DNA of 34,724 nt. It comes from Burkholderiaceae bacterium (GTDB taxonomy: Bacteria > Pseudomonadota > Gammaproteobacteria > Burkholderiales > Burkholderiaceae). Every line of letters begins with the position of its first letter. Position 1 is the stretch's first letter. Where the stretch lies: contig JAGWNU010000017.1 in assembly GCA_028871175.1 (NCBI GenBank), positions 1 through 34,724 of the forward strand, written 5' to 3'. A program made the position numbers and the translations under genes. Shown one piece after another: positions 1,366-8,538 of this stretch. The notes beneath the pieces are model-generated. The model saw nothing but the letters and a program-made list of their open reading frames with translations, was not told the DNA's origin and made no database searches.

Positions 1366-1642
1366 TGGACCCAATAGAACGAACGCGGGGGCGACGTCAT
1401 CGAGTTGATCATGTCGCGCACCTCGCACTCGTTTGCGATCGTGATGTCGGAGACGACCAGCCGCCGCTCGCTCCCTGCGGCGAGGTGGCCAGCTCAAGCG
1501 ACAAATCCAACTGCTTCGCCTCAACGTGTATACGCCGCGCAACACTCGCGTGCGCCAAGCCAAGGCACGCAAAGGCGCGCCAACACCCTTCCGGCTTGGC
1601 TAACCGCATATTGATTCATATCAGGACACTTTCATCAGCAAA

Positions 1643-1670
1643 TTGACAGGATGGGTCTTGACGCAATACA
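1643..1670 (+). promoter_or_regulatory. Possible sigma-70 promoter for the cytochrome pair
   Basis: A perfect -35 hexamer TTGACA (1643-1648) is followed after 16 bases by AATACA (1665-1670), which matches the -10 consensus at only three of six positions. It lies 47 bases before the ATG at 1717. The weak -10 would fit an activator-dependent promoter. This is a pattern match only. Confidence 0.3.
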
Positions 1671-1716
1671 CATGTTGTCAGTGGGGTAGAAATCTAAAAA
1701 AACCGGGAGGGTTACC

Positions 1717-3057
1717 ATGAGACGGTCCATCGCTGCATTCAAGGCGGTCGTCTGGCTATTGCTTGGCGGCATCATGGCGTGGTCAGGACAAGCTGGTGCC
1801 GTACCAGCCTTCGCACGCCAGACCGGCATGGCTTGTATGGCGTGCCACGTCAGTTTTCCAGAGCTCACACCCTTCGGCCGATTCTTCAAGCTGACCGGCT
1901 ACACACTGAAAAACAAGGACACCATCCCGATTTCAGGGATGCTGCAGGTCTCGCGCACCAATACGCGGACCATCGATCAGGACAACTTCGATTTCGTCCG
2001 CAATGGCGACACCGTTCCGCAACAAGCCAGCCTCTTCTACGCTGGCCGCATATATGGCCCGGTCGGAGCGTTCGCACAGTGGACCTATGACGGCATCGCC
2101 CATCACAGCGCACTGGACAACACTGACATTCGCGCCGCCGCGCATTTGACGCGGGAAGATGTCGATTTCATCTATGGCATCACCGTCAACAACAACCCGA
2201 CAATGTCCGACGTCTGGAACAGCAGCCCGGCATTCGGTTATCCCTATGCTTCGCCCAGCATCGGCGTACCGCCTCTGGCTGCTACGCTGGTCGACGGCGG
2301 ACTGGCTCAACAGGTCGTCGGTGCCAGCGCCTACGCATTCTGGCAACGCCACATCTATGCCGAGTTTGGCGCCTACCGCACCGCCGACCAGGCGTTCTCG
2401 ATCTTCCGGGCTGGGCAGGACACCGCCACCCCGGGGGGCGTGGCCCGTCTGAGCGGTGCGAACCCCTACTGGCGCCTCGCGTACAACCAGGAATGGGGGC
2501 CGCACTCTGTGATGTTCGGCACCTTCGGCCTGCTGGCCAACCGGTATCCTGACAACACGATGCCTGGCACACCAACCGATCGATTCAGTGACTACGCACT
2601 CGATGCCCAGTATCAGTACCTGACCATGACACACGCCTTCACGGCGCAAATGGCATGGATCTACGAGGATCAGAACTGGCGCGCCAGCTTCCCGAGCGGG
2701 GGCATCGGCGCAGGTCCAACGCCTGCAAACCCGAAGGACCACCTCAACACCTTCAAGGCCAAGACGTCTTACTACTACCAACGTAAGTACGGCGGCTCGG
2801 TGGCGTTCTTCTCGACCACAGGCAATGCGGACCCGGGCCTCTACTCGCCAACACCGGTAACCGGTAGCGCCAACGGCCGTCCCGATACACAGGGCCTGAT
2901 CCTTGAACTCGACTACCTCCCACATCCGCAGGTCAAGCTGGCGCTGCAGTACACGTGGTACACGAAGTTCAATGGGGCACATACCAATTACGACGGTAAC
3001 GGCAGAAACGCGAGCGACAACAACATGATCTACCTGCTTGGCTGGTTCATGTTCTGA
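1717..3057 (+). CDS. Cyc2-like fused monohaem cytochrome c / outer-membrane porin
   Basis: A 446-residue exported protein. Residues 1-28 are a signal peptide (hydrophobic VVWLLLGGIMAW, cleavage after AGA). Straight after it comes AVPAFARQTGMACMACH, with one c-type haem site C40-M-A-C43-H44, followed by SFPELTPFGRFFKLTGY. The rest is rich in alternating aromatic and polar strands typical of a beta-barrel and ends in IYLLGWFMF, with the terminal Phe of outer-membrane proteins. This arrangement, length and the AxPxFARxTGxxCxxCH pattern are those of the Cyc2 family, porin-cytochromes that pass electrons across the outer membrane, best known from Fe(II) oxidisers. A GGGAGG ribosome binding site precedes the ATG by six bases. 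The next gene, a dihaem cytochrome, starts 39 bases on and may be its periplasmic partner. Substrate is inferred, not shown: many Cyc2 relatives are uncharacterised. The gene is visibly less GC-rich than its neighbours. Confidence 0.75.
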   Translation: MRRSIAAFKAVVWLLLGGIMAWSGQAGAVPAFARQTGMACMACHVSFPELTPFGRFFKLTGYTLKNKDTIPISGMLQVSRTNTRTIDQDNFDFVRNGDTVPQQASLFYAGRIYGPVGAFAQWTYDGIAHHSALDNTDIRAAAHLTREDVDFIYGITVNNNPTMSDVWNSSPAFGYPYASPSIGVPPLAATLVDGGLAQQVVGASAYAFWQRHIYAEFGAYRTADQAFSIFRAGQDTATPGGVARLSGANPYWRLAYNQEWGPHSVMFGTFGLLANRYPDNTMPGTPTDRFSDYALDAQYQYLTMTHAFTAQMAWIYEDQNWRASFPSGGIGAGPTPANPKDHLNTFKAKTSYYYQRKYGGSVAFFSTTGNADPGLYSPTPVTGSANGRPDTQGLILELDYLPHPQVKLALQYTWYTKFNGAHTNYDGNGRNASDNNMIYLLGWFMF

Positions 3058-3096
3058 CAGCCGCAAAGACTCAATCAGGTGACAGGAAGAGACGCG

Positions 3097-3717
3097 ATGA
3101 AAACACTTCACAATTCCGCGTGGAAGCAACTGGCCGGCCTGCTCGTCGTCGCGGCGGCCGGATGGACCGCCACCGCCCACGCACAAGACGGTGAAAAACT
3201 GGCCGCGCAACTATGCGCGACCTGCCACGGCGTACACGGCAATAGCGGATCCCCAATGTTTCCGCGCCTGGATGGGCAAGTGCCAGGCTACCTGGAAGCC
3301 CAATTGAAGGGATTCCGTGATCATGCTCGCGGGGAAACCGACGCTCAAAGCTTCATGTGGGGCATTGCCTCACAACTCGATGACAAGACCATCGCTTCGC
3401 TGGCGGACTACTACGGACGTCAGACAGCCCCTGCTGGCCCGAGCGGCGACCCCGCACTGGTAGCCAAGGGCAAGGAAATCTTCGAGCACGGCCTTGCCAA
3501 GGAGGGCGTCCCTGCTTGTGCGTCGTGCCATGGCCAGCATGGTGAGGGACACGATACGTTCCCCCGGCTGGCGGGGCAGCACGAGGCTTATCTCGCGCGG
3601 CAGATCACCCACTTCCGAAGCGGAGCGCGTGGTAACGCCCCAGTGATGAGCGCTGTCGCACATACGCTCAACGACGAAGAGGCCAACGCGGTCGCGGCGT
3701 TCCTTCAATCGCAGTAG
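3097..3717 (+). CDS. Cytochrome c4-type dihaem periplasmic cytochrome
   Basis: A 206-residue protein with a signal peptide (residues 1-29, cleavage after AHA) and two tandem class I cytochrome c domains. Haem sites are C40-A-T-C43-H44 and C141-A-S-C144-H145; likely axial methionines are M87 (SFMWGIAS) and M184 (PVMSAVAH). The repeated FPRLxGQ..YL..Q...F pattern is the hallmark of cytochrome c4, a soluble or membrane-associated carrier that feeds terminal oxidases. I chose the ATG at 3097, since AGGAAGAG lies five bases before it and the signal peptide then starts with MKTL; an ATG at 3079 lacks this. It follows the Cyc2-like gene by 39 bases, so the two are probably co-transcribed, and it would be the natural acceptor of electrons from that porin. 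Family assignment is firm; partnership is inferred. Confidence 0.88.
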   Translation: MKTLHNSAWKQLAGLLVVAAAGWTATAHAQDGEKLAAQLCATCHGVHGNSGSPMFPRLDGQVPGYLEAQLKGFRDHARGETDAQSFMWGIASQLDDKTIASLADYYGRQTAPAGPSGDPALVAKGKEIFEHGLAKEGVPACASCHGQHGEGHDTFPRLAGQHEAYLARQITHFRSGARGNAPVMSAVAHTLNDEEANAVAAFLQSQ

Positions 3718-4178
3718 CACGCGTGGGCCCAAGGCTCTGGGGCCGCAGCCCGGGGACGCCTTGGCTATCGCGAGACCGCGCTGCTTCACAGTCGAGGCAG
3801 CGCGGCTGCGGTGTTCGTCCTGAGTTGAATCATCGCGCGCCAGCCTGCCCAGCCAACGCCACGGTCGGGATTTTCATCTTCAGCGCCCGGTTGGGACCGT
3901 TGATGGCTGTAGGACTGGATCGAACCCAAGCCAAACCCGGAATAGGTATCCGCGCGGCCGATCAAGCTCCGTAAGGCAGCGGGTGGCGCATCAGCTTTGC
4001 GCGACACACTGACCAGCCAATCCGAGGATGAAGCCATGGTCTTGCTGACCGGCTGCGTGGAGCGCATCTGTGAACGCGCTGGCAAGCCCCTGCCGGGCAC
4101 CATCGACTACCGCGCAGAGCGCCGCAACCCCGGTCTTCGGGGTGGCAAGGTGATCAGGGCGCGGCGCGGCTACTCTCC
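3718..4178. other. Gene-poor stretch after cytochrome pair
   Basis: Apart from the stem-loop at 3729-3764 I see no recognisable gene. A plus-strand frame open from about 3937 to 4182 has gene-like third-position GC near its end but no homology I can name; it may be a fragment. Confidence 0.4.
3729..3764 (+). terminator. Possible U-poor stem-loop after cytochrome pair
   Basis: CCAAGGC and GCCTTGG are perfect seven-base arms with a nested GGGC-CGCA-GCCC stem between them, starting 11 bases after the cytochrome c4 stop codon. There is no T-run after it, so it may stabilise the transcript end or be a weak terminator instead of an intrinsic one. Confidence 0.3.
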
Positions 4179-4182
4179 TTAG
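3997..4182 (+). CDS. Unrecognised short ORF, possible gene fragment
   Basis: From a TTG at 3997 the frame gives 61 residues, including SEDEAMVLLTGCVERICERA and GKPLPGTIDYRAERRNPGL. Codon choice from about 4030 onward is strongly GC-ending, as in real genes here. There is no convincing start or ribosome binding site; the frame is open about 60 bases further back. It ends inside the stop codon of the convergent hydrolase gene. I do not recognise it. It may be the tail of a disrupted gene, in line with the broken recombinase on the other side of the cytochrome pair. Confidence 0.22.
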   Translation: MRDTLTSQSEDEAMVLLTGCVERICERAGKPLPGTIDYRAERRNPGLRGGKVIRARRGYSP

Positions 4183-5135
4183 GCAAGTGCCTCGGCAAGC
4201 TCAGCGGCCGAGGCGGCAACTTCGAGCACCCACGCCGTCGTCAACGCGGGCTGCGTAACGGGCAGCATGTGCCCGCCTTCCACGATCCGCAGATTCGCAC
4301 GGTCAAGCTTGTGCGTGAGCGCTTCGCCCTGACGCCGGACGTTGAGGATGCGATCACCGCGCCCGTAGAGCACATCGACCGGCACGGTCATCGACGCATA
4401 CCGACGCTCCATGTCGGGCAGATCCTCCGGTGCGCTGACGAGGTCGGACGATGCCGCGTAGAACACATGCGGGCGCAGGCCCAGCAAGCCGCCGCCCTTG
4501 AACGGAAAGTCCTTTGGCATCGACTCGGGCGCAAACACCATGGCAATGGCCTTGCGTGAGTTGAGAATCGACAGGGGGATCGCCAGCGTCCAGGAGACCA
4601 GCCGGCGCACCAGTGGCGACGTCAGCGCGAGGCCACTGAAAGCGCCGGGCGGCGTGCTTTCGGTATGTGTCAGCGGAGCGATCAGGGCAAGCCCGCGAAC
4701 GGCCTGCGGATGATTGAGCCCCACCGCGAGCGCGATTGCCCCGCCCAGTGAGTGCCCGACCAGCAGCGGCTTTTCCAGCCCGAGCGTCTCGATGCACTGC
4801 GCAACCATGCGCGCCTGCGCATAGATGTTTGCGGTGGACGCCGCGCCGCGCAACGAGCGCCCCGAGCCCGGCCGGTCGATCGCGATCACGCGATGCGATT
4901 GCGCCAGGCGCTCCAGATCCAGGTACGCAAAATTGCGCAGATTGCCGCATAGACCATGCACCAACACGATGGCTGGGCCATGGCCACGGTCGGTGTAATG
5001 CACACGATCGCCGCCGACATCCATGAACTTGCCTTCTGGCGGAAAGCCCCTGGCAACACGACGCGCGATAAAAAAGGAGAACGCCACAAGCGCCGCAATC
5101 GTCAGGGCGATGGCATACAGGATGATCTGGATCAC
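4179..5135 (-). CDS. Membrane-anchored alpha/beta hydrolase
   Basis: A 318-residue alpha/beta-hydrolase-fold protein. Residues 3-24 are one hydrophobic helix followed by RR, so it is probably anchored in the inner membrane. The oxyanion-hole HGLCG is at 60-64, the nucleophile elbow GHSLGG has Ser129, and the acid and base are likely Asp261 (YGRGDRIL) and His289 (EGGHMLP). The start is a GTG at 5135, 15 bases after the stop of the monooxygenase gene, so the two form an operon. Such hydrolases often cleave esters; next to a Baeyer-Villiger-type enzyme the obvious role is to hydrolyse the ester or lactone it makes. That substrate link is inference from position. Other roles (epoxide hydrolase, haloalkane dehalogenase) are less likely, as the nucleophile is Ser, not Asp. 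Confidence 0.85.
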   Translation of the reverse strand: MIQIILYAIALTIAALVAFSFFIARRVARGFPPEGKFMDVGGDRVHYTDRGHGPAIVLVHGLCGNLRNFAYLDLERLAQSHRVIAIDRPGSGRSLRGAASTANIYAQARMVAQCIETLGLEKPLLVGHSLGGAIALAVGLNHPQAVRGLALIAPLTHTESTPPGAFSGLALTSPLVRRLVSWTLAIPLSILNSRKAIAMVFAPESMPKDFPFKGGGLLGLRPHVFYAASSDLVSAPEDLPDMERRYASMTVPVDVLYGRGDRILNVRRQGEALTHKLDRANLRIVEGGHMLPVTQPALTTAWVLEVAASAAELAEALA

Positions 5136-5150
5136 AGTCGTCTCGAATCG

Positions 5151-6683
5151 TTAAACCGGTTGGGCGACGCCGGCAGGCTGGGCGCGGCGCTCGAACTGCA
5201 TGGCGCTGTCGGCAAGGTTGCCGAACTTGAGCATCAGCAGGTCGCGTGCGTAGTTCTGATAGGACTTCCACGGCTGCTTCGTGCCCTGTTTGGGCAGGAT
5301 GGCCGCCGCACGCTGGATATAGCCGGAGGTCAGGTCCACGGCGGGCTCGAGGTGCATCGCGTCGTCGTCCAGACGCGGCACGCACGTGTCGAAGCCGTTC
5401 GTCTGCATGTGATTGAGCAGGCGGCACACGTATTGCGCGATCAGCTCCGCCTTGAGCGTCCACGAGGCATTCGTGTAACCGAATGACGACGCGAGGTTCG
5501 GCACGCCGCTATACATCATGCCTTTGTAGGACACGGTTTCCGCAAGATTCACCGGGCGGCCGTCGATCGTGATGGACGCCCCGCCCAGCACCTTGAGCTT
5601 GAGGCCCGTGGCGGTGACGATCACGTCTGCATCCAGATGTTCACCGCTCTTGAGCGACAGGCCCGTGGGCGTAAAACGCACGATCTCGTCGGTGGCAATG
5701 GACGCCTTGCCAGCACGGATGGTCTTGAAGAGGTCGCCGTTCGGTACGAGGCACAGGCGCTGGTCCCAGGGGTTGTAGCGCGGCGTGAGGTGCTTGCGCA
5801 CGTCGAAGCCGGGGCCGAGCTGCTTGCCCGCCATGCGGATGATGAAGTCCTTGAAGGCTTTTGGCTTGCGGCGCGCCACGCTGTAGAAATACATCGTCAG
5901 CAGGACATTCTTCGTGCGCACCAGCCGGTGCGCCAGGCCGGAGGGGAGCCAGCGGCGCAGCATATTGGCCACGGCGTCCTGCTCCGGCCGCGACACGATA
6001 TAGGTGGGCGAGCGCTGCAGCATCGTCACATGCTGCGCCGACGCGGCCATCGCGGGCACAAGCGTCACCGCTGTCGCCCCGCTGCCGATCACGACCACGC
6101 GCTTGCCTGTGTAGTCGAGGTCTTGCGGCCAGTGCTGCGGATGCACGATGCGCCCCTGGAACGCCGCCATCTCGGGCCATGTGGGCGCATGGCCTTGCGC
6201 ATAATCGTAGTAGCCGCTGCACATGTAGAGAAACTTGCACGTGAAATGCAGAAGCGCCTCGCGCGCCCCGTCGCTATGCACGACCTGCACGGACCAGCGC
6301 GCGGCAGAAGAATCCCAGCTTGCGCCCGTCACCCTGTGGCGAAAGCGGATCGTCTTGTCGATGCCGAATACACGCGCCGTGTCGCGGATGTAATCCAGGA
6401 TGGTCTGGCCATCGGAGATCGCCTTATCGCTGTGCCACGGCCGAAAGCTGTAGCCCAGCGTGAGCATGTCGGAGTCGGACCGGATGCCGGGGTAGCGGAA
6501 CAAATCCCACGTGCCGCCGATGGTCGCGCGGCCTTCCAGGATGGCGAAGCGCGCCGACGGGCAACGCTCCCGCAGGTGATAGGCGGCCCCGATGCCGGAG
6601 AGGCCCGCGCCGACGATCAGCACATCAAGGTCCGTGTCCGGGGCGGCTGAGCGGCTGGCGCCCTCGTGGGTCATCGTCTCCAT
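5151..6683 (-). CDS. Flavin-containing monooxygenase, Baeyer-Villiger type I-like
   Basis: A 510-residue flavoprotein. GAGLSG at 25-30 binds FAD, and GSGATA at 200-205 is the second Rossmann motif for NADPH. Between them F175-QG-RIV-H181-PQH-W185-P matches the FxGxxxHxxxW(P/D) fingerprint of type I Baeyer-Villiger monooxygenases, close to the EthA branch. Such enzymes insert one oxygen atom next to a ketone carbonyl, giving an ester or lactone, using NADPH and O2. AGGGAGA lies five bases before the ATG at 6683, fixing the start. The gene is first in an operon with the alpha/beta hydrolase and is divergent from a TetR regulator 96 bases away with an inverted repeat between them, which argues for induction by the substrate. 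The natural substrate cannot be read from sequence. Confidence 0.88.
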   Translation of the reverse strand: METMTHEGASRSAAPDTDLDVLIVGAGLSGIGAAYHLRERCPSARFAILEGRATIGGTWDLFRYPGIRSDSDMLTLGYSFRPWHSDKAISDGQTILDYIRDTARVFGIDKTIRFRHRVTGASWDSSAARWSVQVVHSDGAREALLHFTCKFLYMCSGYYDYAQGHAPTWPEMAAFQGRIVHPQHWPQDLDYTGKRVVVIGSGATAVTLVPAMAASAQHVTMLQRSPTYIVSRPEQDAVANMLRRWLPSGLAHRLVRTKNVLLTMYFYSVARRKPKAFKDFIIRMAGKQLGPGFDVRKHLTPRYNPWDQRLCLVPNGDLFKTIRAGKASIATDEIVRFTPTGLSLKSGEHLDADVIVTATGLKLKVLGGASITIDGRPVNLAETVSYKGMMYSGVPNLASSFGYTNASWTLKAELIAQYVCRLLNHMQTNGFDTCVPRLDDDAMHLEPAVDLTSGYIQRAAAILPKQGTKQPWKSYQNYARDLLMLKFGNLADSAMQFERRAQPAGVAQPV

Positions 6684-6724
6684 GCGGTCTCCCTGTTGGC
6701 GGCATCGCGGATGCCGCCCTGAAT

Positions 6725-6744
6725 GTGGTGTTTCTCGTCACCAC
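6725..6744. promoter_or_regulatory. Inverted repeat, probable TetR operator
   Basis: GTGGTG, eight bases, CACCAC are perfect six-base arms midway between the divergent monooxygenase and TetR genes. Size and position fit a TetR-family operator acting on both promoters. Confidence 0.55.
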
Positions 6745-6779
6745 TTTAATTTTCAGGCGTCCTGGCGTCAAATAGCGAA

Positions 6780-7442
6780 ATGGAAAAAACATTTGAAACG
6801 GCCAGAAAAGGCCGGCCGTACGGAGGTATGGCCCCGGAGGCGCGTGCGGCGGAGCGCCGCGAGGCACTCATCCGGGCCGCGACGCAGGTGTTCGGCACCG
6901 TGGGCTTCCGCAAGGCCACCGTGCGGGCGATCTGTCACGAAGCGAAGCTCAACGACCGCTATTTCTACGCGGCCTTCGACAGCCTGGAGGCGTTGCTGCG
7001 CGCGACGTACCAGTTGCACGCCGAAAGCCTGCGTGCGCAGGTCTGGCAGGCCATCGCAGCGGCCGATGACAGCCTGGAAGCGCGTGTCGACGCCGGCTTG
7101 CAGGCGTTCTTCGCGTTCTTGCGAGACCCCAGCGCCGCGCGGGTACTGCTGCTGGAAGTGATGGGGGTGAGCCCCGAAACCGATGCGACCTATCAACGCA
7201 ACCTGCTGGAATTCGGTAAGCAGATCATGGCAATTGGTCAATCGCCACGCGCGCGGGCAGACGCTCTGGCTGGCGCGGACGCGCGCGCTGACCAGCGCAT
7301 CATCGGCCTGGCACTGGTGGGCGCCATGACCAATGTCGGCGCGGCCTGGCTGCTGGGCGGCTATCGCGAAACCGAAGAAAAGATGGTGCGCAATTGCCGG
7401 CAGGTGCTGCTCGGCACCTTACAGTCCGTTGCCGCACGCTGA
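6780..7442 (+). CDS. TetR/AcrR family transcriptional regulator
   Basis: A 220-residue repressor-type protein. The helix-turn-helix lies at about residues 28-70 (RREALIRAATQVFGTVGFRK, ATVRAICHEAKLNDRYFYAAF), and the rest is the helical ligand and dimer domain. It is transcribed away from the monooxygenase/hydrolase operon, with a GTGGTG-N8-CACCAC repeat in the 96-base gap, so it most likely represses that operon and itself until a substrate binds. An ATG at 6828 has GGAGG before it but at a one-base spacing, too close; I keep the ATG at 6780, although its own ribosome binding site is weak. Confidence 0.88.
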   Translation: MEKTFETARKGRPYGGMAPEARAAERREALIRAATQVFGTVGFRKATVRAICHEAKLNDRYFYAAFDSLEALLRATYQLHAESLRAQVWQAIAAADDSLEARVDAGLQAFFAFLRDPSAARVLLLEVMGVSPETDATYQRNLLEFGKQIMAIGQSPRARADALAGADARADQRIIGLALVGAMTNVGAAWLLGGYRETEEKMVRNCRQVLLGTLQSVAAR

Positions 7443-7507
7443 CGGCGCCGTCACGCACCTGCCCCTCCAGCGAGCGAAAGCGCGCGGGTCAGCGAGCGTT
7501 GCGCCGC

Positions 7508-7535
7508 CTCAAGCCACCTCAAGCCACCTCAAGCC
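7508..7535. repeat. Ten-base tandem repeat across a stop codon
   Basis: CTCAAGCCAC occurs at 7508-7517 and 7518-7527, and its first eight bases again at 7528-7535. The second copy contains the stop codon (7519-7521) of the minus-strand hydrolase gene. As ten is not a multiple of three, gain or loss of a unit would change the C-terminus. Confidence 0.75.
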
Positions 7536-8502
7536 GGCCCAGGCGCACCACCGTCACGCCTGGCGCCAAGTGCCGCAGCGATGGCTGCAGGAGCACACAG
7601 TTGTCGAATGGCGTGACGATCCTGGTGTCGCCGTCGGTGGCGATCACGGTGCCGGCCCGAGCGATCACCTCCATGCCTCGGTAGTCTTCGGCAAAACGGA
7701 AGGCCGTGGACCGGGCGACCACCGCGTCGGCCACGCGGATGCACCGCACGTCGAGTGCAGGTGCAATGCCCAACCAAGGCGCCACGGTCGTCTCTTCGAC
7801 CGTGCCCAGCACCGTCAGGAAGCGCGCGCAGGCATCGAGCGCAACGTCACGGCTCACGCGTTCAAAGTGCTGGCCGCACTCGATGAGCAATGCGTTCTTC
7901 GGGCTGGCGGCATCGCCAAAGCCACCGTAGTCGCGCACGCGTCGGCCAGCGGCGTGGCCAGCGTCAATCATCAGATGGGACGGCGCGCCAACCTGACGGC
8001 CGAACGCGACGCCCTTTTCCAGCGGGCCGGTCAGCATCAGCGGCGCAGCCTTTTCGTGCATCGAATGAATGTCGAGCAGACAGTCGACGGTGTCGATCAC
8101 CGGACGCAGCACGCGCGCGCGGCGCAGCTCCAGCGTGTTGCCGGGGCCATCGAGCTTGTCGGCGGACCAGACACGGTTCAGATCTTCTTCGATGAAGCGG
8201 GTGGCGTCCGGGTCGCGGATGTCGAATCGTTCGTAGGCCTCGACATTGGCGAAGGACAGTGTCAGCCGACCGCGCACGGGGCGTACGCCGGCTGCAAGGA
8301 GCGTATCCACGGCGATGGCGCCGCACAGTTCGTTGCCATGCGTGAGCGCATTGATCATGACGTGCGGGCCCGGCACGCCGCTGTCGAACGTATGCACGTA
8401 GTCGACGCCATGTGTGCCGGTCTCCCAGCGGCGGATATCGGGTTTCTGCAACTCGATCGGGTAGACCGGCAGCGTGGCGCGCAGCGCCTCCAGGGTCATC
8501 AT
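7519..8502 (-). CDS. Aspartoacylase / succinylglutamate desuccinylase-like zinc hydrolase (M14 fold)
   Basis: A 327-residue metalloenzyme of the AstE/AspA group. Zinc ligands are His55 and Glu58 in LTHGNE and His146 in LLDIHSMHE; the substrate-binding pair DLNR is at 107-110, and Glu208 in LLIECGQH is the likely general base. The C-terminal third is the beta-barrel-like lid domain seen in this group. The family removes acyl groups from N-acylated amino acids, such as N-acetylaspartate or N-succinylglutamate. It lies 36 bases after an MFS symporter gene and shares its strand, so the pair probably imports and deacylates one compound, under the LysR regulator upstream. There are no other arginine-succinyltransferase (ast) genes here, so I avoid the name astE. 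AAGGAC precedes the ATG pair at 8497-8502. Confidence 0.85.
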   Translation of the reverse strand: MMTLEALRATLPVYPIELQKPDIRRWETGTHGVDYVHTFDSGVPGPHVMINALTHGNELCGAIAVDTLLAAGVRPVRGRLTLSFANVEAYERFDIRDPDATRFIEEDLNRVWSADKLDGPGNTLELRRARVLRPVIDTVDCLLDIHSMHEKAAPLMLTGPLEKGVAFGRQVGAPSHLMIDAGHAAGRRVRDYGGFGDAASPKNALLIECGQHFERVSRDVALDACARFLTVLGTVEETTVAPWLGIAPALDVRCIRVADAVVARSTAFRFAEDYRGMEVIARAGTVIATDGDTRIVTPFDNCVLLQPSLRHLAPGVTVVRLGRLEVA

Positions 8503-8538
8503 GCGAAGTCCTTGGTGAAACGAAAGATAGGTCTTGAT

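Follow-up and report, generated by a model that had tools for sequence, protein, structure and literature searches.

In a 34,724-nucleotide (nt) stretch of Burkholderiaceae DNA (contig JAGWNU010000017.1, referred to as the window), a gene for a fused cytochrome-porin of the Cyc2 family is followed by a gene for a di-haem cytochrome c4. We read this pair as a Cyc2-type module for electron entry at the outer membrane that would be switched on at low oxygen, and assign this reading a probability of about one half (0.52). The Cyc2-c4 pair itself is ordinary for its family. New are its changing genomic site in Ralstonia, with two sites in the window genome, the Fnr-type box upstream of it and the wider enrichment of such boxes before Cyc2 genes. 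The oxygen-type box and the changing site are points deserving attention. The host organism is a Ralstonia; the window is contig 61 of its 4.06 Mb draft genome, rated 90% complete. The features of the locus are the following.

1611..1624, + strand: Fnr/Anr-type palindrome TTGATTCATATCAG, 9/10 to TTGATNNNNATCAA, its centre about 25 base pairs (bp) before TTGACA
1643..1648, + strand: TTGACA, predicted -35 hexamer; TTGAC invariant in 7/7 Ralstonia upstreams
1705..1711, + strand: ribosome binding site GGGAGGG, from sequence
1717..3057, + strand: Cyc2-family fused monohaem cytochrome and outer-membrane barrel, 446 amino acids (aa)
1717..1800, + strand: signal peptide, cleavage predicted after residue 28 (AGA), judged by eye
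1798..1866, + strand: Cyc2 signature, with AVPAFARQT at 1798-1824, the haem site CMACH at 1834-1848 and PEL at 1858-1866
1930..3054, + strand: beta-barrel region, 16 long strands predicted, C-terminal Phe
3079, + strand: alternative c4 start, in-frame GTG
3097..3717, + strand: di-haem cytochrome c4, 206 aa, ATG at 3097, haem sites at 3214-3228 and 3517-3531

The open reading frame (ORF) at 1717-3057 is assigned by its sequence and its structural model to the Cyc2 family of fused cytochrome-porins. The original prediction had described a Cyc2-like porin-cytochrome with a c4 partner, and this description is borne out by the motifs, the predicted barrel, a relative inside a rus-type operon and the matches of the c4 protein in the PDB. 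The two ORFs, the signal-like N terminus, the haem site, the peptide PFGRFFKLTGY, the terminal Phe and the 39 bases (3058-3096) that separate the co-oriented genes were all found as described; after the signal-like N terminus the Cyc2 protein reads AVPAFARQTGMACMACHVSFPELTPFGRFFKLTGY. In the printed consensus, AXPXFAR[Q/K][T/Y] precedes CXXCH and PXL lies four residues past it (passages of PMC8406198). The window protein has all three elements, AVPAFARQT, a single CMACH and then VSF-PEL, with three residues between AVPAFARQT and CMACH against five in those passages. Cyc2 proteins are expected to carry a signal peptide and to be 365 aa or longer; the window protein has 446 aa and a signal judged by eye. 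Structure prediction, proposed earlier as a check of the barrel, gave 16 strands, and matches to porins were obtained as well. Searches of Pfam and NCBIfam with the Cyc2 protein returned no model at E 1 or better, a sequence search of the PDB returned nothing similar at E 1, and its peptide patterns had no match in viral contigs.

The c4 protein carries two CXXCH sites and was matched by the Pfam model Cytochrom_C in two stretches; its export was judged by eye. It aligned over about 170 residues with the solved structures 1h1o, 6q2u, 8uf3 and 1etp. The best match was 1h1o, 'cytochrome C-552' (E 6.8e-40), which we take to be the c4 of Acidithiobacillus ferrooxidans, the database entry giving the molecule name only. 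The two genes may, we infer, form the 'complete' conduit from outer membrane to periplasm that had been proposed.

The predicted oxygen control comes from the upstream region. When seven Ralstonia upstreams were aligned, each showed TTGATYCRYRTCAG, then 17-20 nt (18 in the window) and TTGAC, and the box halves TTGAT and TCAG were invariant in 7/7. Exact TTGATNNNNATCA occurs once in the 34.7 kb window, at the box. We take TTGATNNNNATCAA to be the Fnr/Anr consensus and a site at -61.5 to mark a class of activator-dependent promoters; the spacing fits such an activator site near -61.5, as predicted from sequence. Across the whole genome, TTGATNNNNATCAR was hit 38 times, both strands counted, at 27 places; the motif read backwards, used as control, gave none. 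Among the 22/27 places inspected (five were without a locus), one is the window's own and six precede an fnr-like gene, nirK (copper nitrite reductase), nosZ, an ApbE-like gene (two places) and hemN. The Fnr-like protein of the genome has a C-X2-C-X5-C cluster and scores 203.6 bits against a model cut-off of 228. Both sequence elements of an Fnr regulon, a TTGATNNNNATCAA-type box upstream and an Fnr-like protein in the genome, are thus present. The boxed copper nitrite reductase (L199 800-2161, G000:C36) lies in a 547-aa frame whose later part matches a cytochrome c domain (C36:1946-2209), presumably the arrangement of haem-tethered NirK.

Identity of the window Cyc2 was 86-89% to its nearest named relatives, all Ralstonia, 73% to a Caballeronia plasmid protein and 36-45% to others from many Proteobacteria. 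It was 39% identical to the Cyc2 inside the rus-type operon of genome G278 (L054), where the row continues with cupredoxin-, CoxB-, CoxA-, CoxC-, CtaA-, CtaB- and rusticyanin-like ORFs. These were named by eye except for the rusticyanin-like one, which scores 137.2 against a model cut-off of 146.7; no cyc1-like ORF was seen between cyc2 and the cupredoxin in G278. When rusticyanin was used as an anchor, the one genome with a score over the cut-off (G222) gave no match to the window Cyc2 at E 0.01. A tree of 133 distinct proteins was built by a quick method, with Shimodaira-Hasegawa-like approximate likelihood ratio (SH-aLRT) supports and a midpoint root. In it the window Cyc2 joins Ralstonia, then Caballeronia, then one further row, within a set of 59 rows mostly from its own order, and the rus-operon Cyc2 of G278 falls in an adjoining set of 25 rows. 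Another 25 rows, most with the haem-site form QHFPxLN, are set apart by a long, fully supported branch. We call them Cluster-1-like, a label that comes from the motif, the tree and descriptions in papers rather than from a named Cluster 1 sequence; they matched the Cyc2 profile mainly at the N terminus. In this tree, the kind of check that had been proposed, the protein groups on the side of the G278 rus-operon Cyc2, the sole anchor, and away from the Cluster-1-like proteins; as far as that anchor reaches, it does not fall far outside Cyc2.

Strict AXPXFAR[QK][TY] was found in 78/108 of these Cyc2 proteins outside the Cluster-1-like clade and in 14/25 inside. M75 was considered as the distal haem ligand; Met occupies this position in 91/108 proteins outside the clade and in 0/25 inside, and therefore no distal ligand was called. 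With E limits that differ between the two sets, the Cyc2 profile matched in 92/399 genomes of the order and 63/369 of the class, so the family is common. An ORF with two CXXCH starting at most 400 nt downstream was present for 56/106 Cyc2 genes outside the clade and 4/21 inside; outside it, 14/106 had a one-CXXCH ORF and 36/106 had none. A cytochrome partner is therefore frequent. This count was limited to Cyc2 genes followed by 800 nt or more of sequence, which excluded four Cluster-1-like and two other rows, and L164, L165 and L186 were assigned to the clade by the tree. Among 187 records, 34 held no Cyc2 ORF by the filter on motif and length; 20 had been retrieved for other families, and the remaining 14 were interrupted, truncated, remnant or divergent. 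Contig ends truncate L147 and L148. The loci are best matches plus hand-picked ones, so the sample is non-random and its rows are related. In this set, L047 (an A. ferrooxidans YQ-N3 plasmid record) and L049 (Acidiphilium cryptum pACRY03) hold an identical mature Cyc2-like protein in the same gene row, possibly through transfer or a mixed culture.

The best box score was then taken in the 340-nt stretch before each gene, for the 132/133 proteins with enough upstream sequence. Outside the Cluster-1-like clade, 35/107 Cyc2 genes are preceded by a box at 9/10 or better (15 of these boxes are perfect), and inside it 0/25 are, with L181 (same protein as L126) sorted with the clade in this final count. 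As control genes we took the longest ORFs that do not overlap and that leave 100 nt or more free upstream; such a box precedes 12/372 of them (2 perfect). The Cyc2 upstreams are lower in G+C (51.5 vs 57.2% in controls). Among upstreams of 58% G+C or below, the counts are 26/78 and 11/181, and the enrichment is therefore about fivefold, where the other counts would give tenfold or more. In 200 dinucleotide shuffles of the Cyc2 upstreams (108 rows) the mean was 1.93 boxes and the maximum 5. An earlier real-sequence control gave 18/918 ORFs of at least 180 aa with a box; it carries little weight, since some six-frame ORFs of that length are spurious and most of them sit in coding DNA. The 35 boxed rows carry 21 family labels plus one unassigned row, and six of them are Ralstonia. 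In the passages and titles from searches on cyc2 with FNR, Anr or low oxygen, no tie to the Fnr regulator appeared, an absence that extends to these searches only. Titles on Rhodanobacter and nitrate show Cyc2 under discussion for nitrate-reducing Fe(II)-oxidising cultures. We put forward only tentatively that Cyc2 outside the Cluster-1-like branch serves facultative heterotrophs and denitrifiers, largely as a low-oxygen module under Fnr control that is often paired with c4 and able to move as a unit.

Within Ralstonia, a Cyc2 match at E 1e-5 or better was found in 9/16 genomes, and Cyc2 of the window type (86% or more) in seven, including one (G010) in which it is split over two frames. A second copy lies in the window's own genome (C197:6433-8434, Cyc2 86% identical). 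DNA similarity of the window to the full-length Ralstonia copies begins at 1611-1775 and ends at 3717-3727, and to the Caballeronia plasmid it spans 1796-3710. The second copy has 10.5 kb in common with another Ralstonia (L011), and three genomes (L009, L010, L056) have flanks common to one another; in the remaining Ralstonia locus comparisons, similarity is confined to about 2.1 kb. The pair with its short upstream stretch thus appears, from comparisons that cover a few kb of flank per locus, to occupy about five sites among the Ralstonia loci compared. Ten comparisons among five complete copies gave ratios of nonsynonymous to synonymous substitution (dN/dS) of 0.05-0.10, with 0.50-0.64 synonymous differences per site. 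Judged by these rates, the pair is under purifying selection. The 86-89% relatives in Ralstonia, the DNA similarity over both genes and the low dN/dS argue that the gene pair is not a chance one.

On the Caballeronia sp. SBC2 plasmid, a gene for a high-potential iron-sulfur protein (HiPIP; L044 6948-7259) lies about 800 bp upstream of the Cyc2-c4 pair, and transposase genes lie at most 8 kb away on both sides. The G010 copy in two frames (L013, L061) and an 82-residue piece with a stop in G008 (L029, L063) point to decay of the Cyc2 gene in part of the lineages. Two Ralstonia genomes hold a divergent second type of Cyc2 (HANPLFARQTGLxCASCH, 38-44% identity), at L059 (G013:C12) and L060 (G011:C2); it is the sole type in G011 (44%) and stands beside the window type in G013 (42%). 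At L059 and L060 there was no CXXCH ORF within 1.5 kb downstream and no box at 8/10 or better.

If the pair works as proposed, electrons from a dissolved donor would pass to the Cyc2 haem and on to c4. From c4 the route could lead to the cbb3 oxidase when oxygen is low, or else to the reductases for nitrite and nitrous oxide, before whose genes a box of this type also stands; CcoN of the cbb3 oxidase is present in the genome. No RuBisCO was found in the draft genome, rated 90% complete, and the gain would therefore be extra electrons or the removal of Fe(II), not growth on CO2. Rusticyanin is represented in the window genome by a weak model match only (E 2.4e-4), and one HiPIP gene was found, on another contig. 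Elsewhere, at L188, a HiPIP gene with a twin-arginine-like leader (8211-8525) lies near a gene for a 302-aa protein (6600-7508) with two CXXCH and an Ala/Pro-rich linker.

The donor is probably Fe(II). The host had earlier been called an organism not known for iron oxidation; this did not hold up, as Ralstonia reportedly mediates Fe oxidation according to a 2011 title known through reference lists, and as the genus appears in a survey of Cyc2. The survey (Keffer 2021) names Ralstonia among the Cyc2 homologues in passages of PMC8406198. According to further passages of that paper, biochemical tests of three Cyc2 representatives showed Fe(II) oxidation by each. Fe(II) is our best guess because of these three proteins together with the Ralstonia title, and the same two points count against a Cyc2-type module that serves another donor, such as Cu(I), reduced humics, or an electrode or mineral surface. 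The wide spread of the family within the order would suit such a donor, which we consider possible but rather unlikely. The pair could instead act as a protective sink, where Fe(II), which accumulates at low oxygen and reacts with nitrite and NO, is oxidised outside the cell to prevent damage, with no energy gain. The type of box common to nirK and nosZ and the lack of RuBisCO in the draft would agree with a sink, whereas c4 with a cbb3 oxidase is a usual energy-conserving route, and we hold the sink to be improbable.

Other observations weigh against a low-oxygen module, and several of them would be expected if the box were a chance palindrome or the site of another Crp-type regulator, with the pair not under oxygen control whichever donor it uses. 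The -10-like TTTCAT/TTCCAT found 17 bp past the -35 in relatives is degenerate in the window, and the box of the second copy in the window genome scores 8/10. In the family, 7/35 boxes are over 320 nt away from the motif on its upstream side (four of them in Rhodanobacteraceae) and may serve other genes. Several Crp-family regulators are encoded in the genome. This explanation is unlikely in our view, since the box is kept in seven Ralstonia upstreams with largely different outer flanks, is enriched family-wide and is repeated before Fnr-type targets in the window genome. The low-oxygen module must be set against further points of the same kind. A promoter scan of 1500-4200 found no sigma-70-type site (it gave one terminator-like site, below the shuffle mean of 2.3), and most of the other motif places in the genome lie inside or beside unrelated ORFs (PHA-synthase-like, glycosyltransferase-like). 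Outside the Cluster-1-like clade 72/107 Cyc2 genes are without a box at 9/10, the box label needs 23 changes on a tree of related rows, and six plasmid homologues score 6-7 of 10. The haem segment of the Cyc2 model, expected in this family to form a plug in the barrel, is of low confidence (residues 14-53, predicted local distance difference test, pLDDT, below 50). A Pfam scan of seven window neighbours (an IclR regulator, an alpha/beta hydrolase, a flavin monooxygenase, a TetR regulator, an AstE/AspA-type protein, a transporter and a LysR regulator) showed no iron or respiratory link. Finally, 7/16 Ralstonia genomes have no Cyc2 match and two keep broken copies only; the module is therefore dispensable.

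The role of Cyc2 homologues in bacteria not regarded as iron oxidisers is described as an open question in passages of PMC5566968 and PMC8406198, and genetics is described as hard in iron oxidisers in passages of the latter. In heterotrophs that grow fast, two closely set genes behind a predicted oxygen switch offer a testable condition, namely low oxygen and nitrite, and are simple to remove. If the link to Fnr holds across families, it would help to explain why iron oxidation by such bacteria might be missed under air, and extracellular Fe(II) oxidation would be coupled with denitrification or with cbb3 respiration in many species that do not pass for iron oxidisers.

The Cyc2-Cyc1 genes at the start of the A. 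ferrooxidans rus operon have the same order as the window pair, with the gene for an outer-membrane Cyc2 first and that for a c4 next (passages of PMC10654088). The rus operon differs in its other genes, as no rusticyanin, cup or cox genes were seen among the window neighbours examined, and in its control, which is by RegA and sigma-70 promoters in A. ferrooxidans (passages of PMC5506826) and would be by an Fnr-type box in the window. The Cyc2 of Mariprofundus ferrooxydans PV-1 (Cluster 1) resembles that of the window in AXPXFAR, CXXCH, PXL and 16 strands, as given in passages of PMC8406198; it was compared by description, and the Cluster-1-like proteins form the separate clade in which no gene has a box at 9/10 or better. 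The Ralstonia Cyc2 homologues of the Keffer 2021 set, in passages of the same paper, are of the same genus and family as the window Cyc2. The Bradyrhizobium cluster, too, has Cyc2 next to periplasmic cytochromes and belongs to a host for which iron oxidation is not obligate, but there Cyc2 is accompanied by a HiPIP and three periplasmic cytochromes (passages of PMC5566968), whereas the window pair has a single c4.
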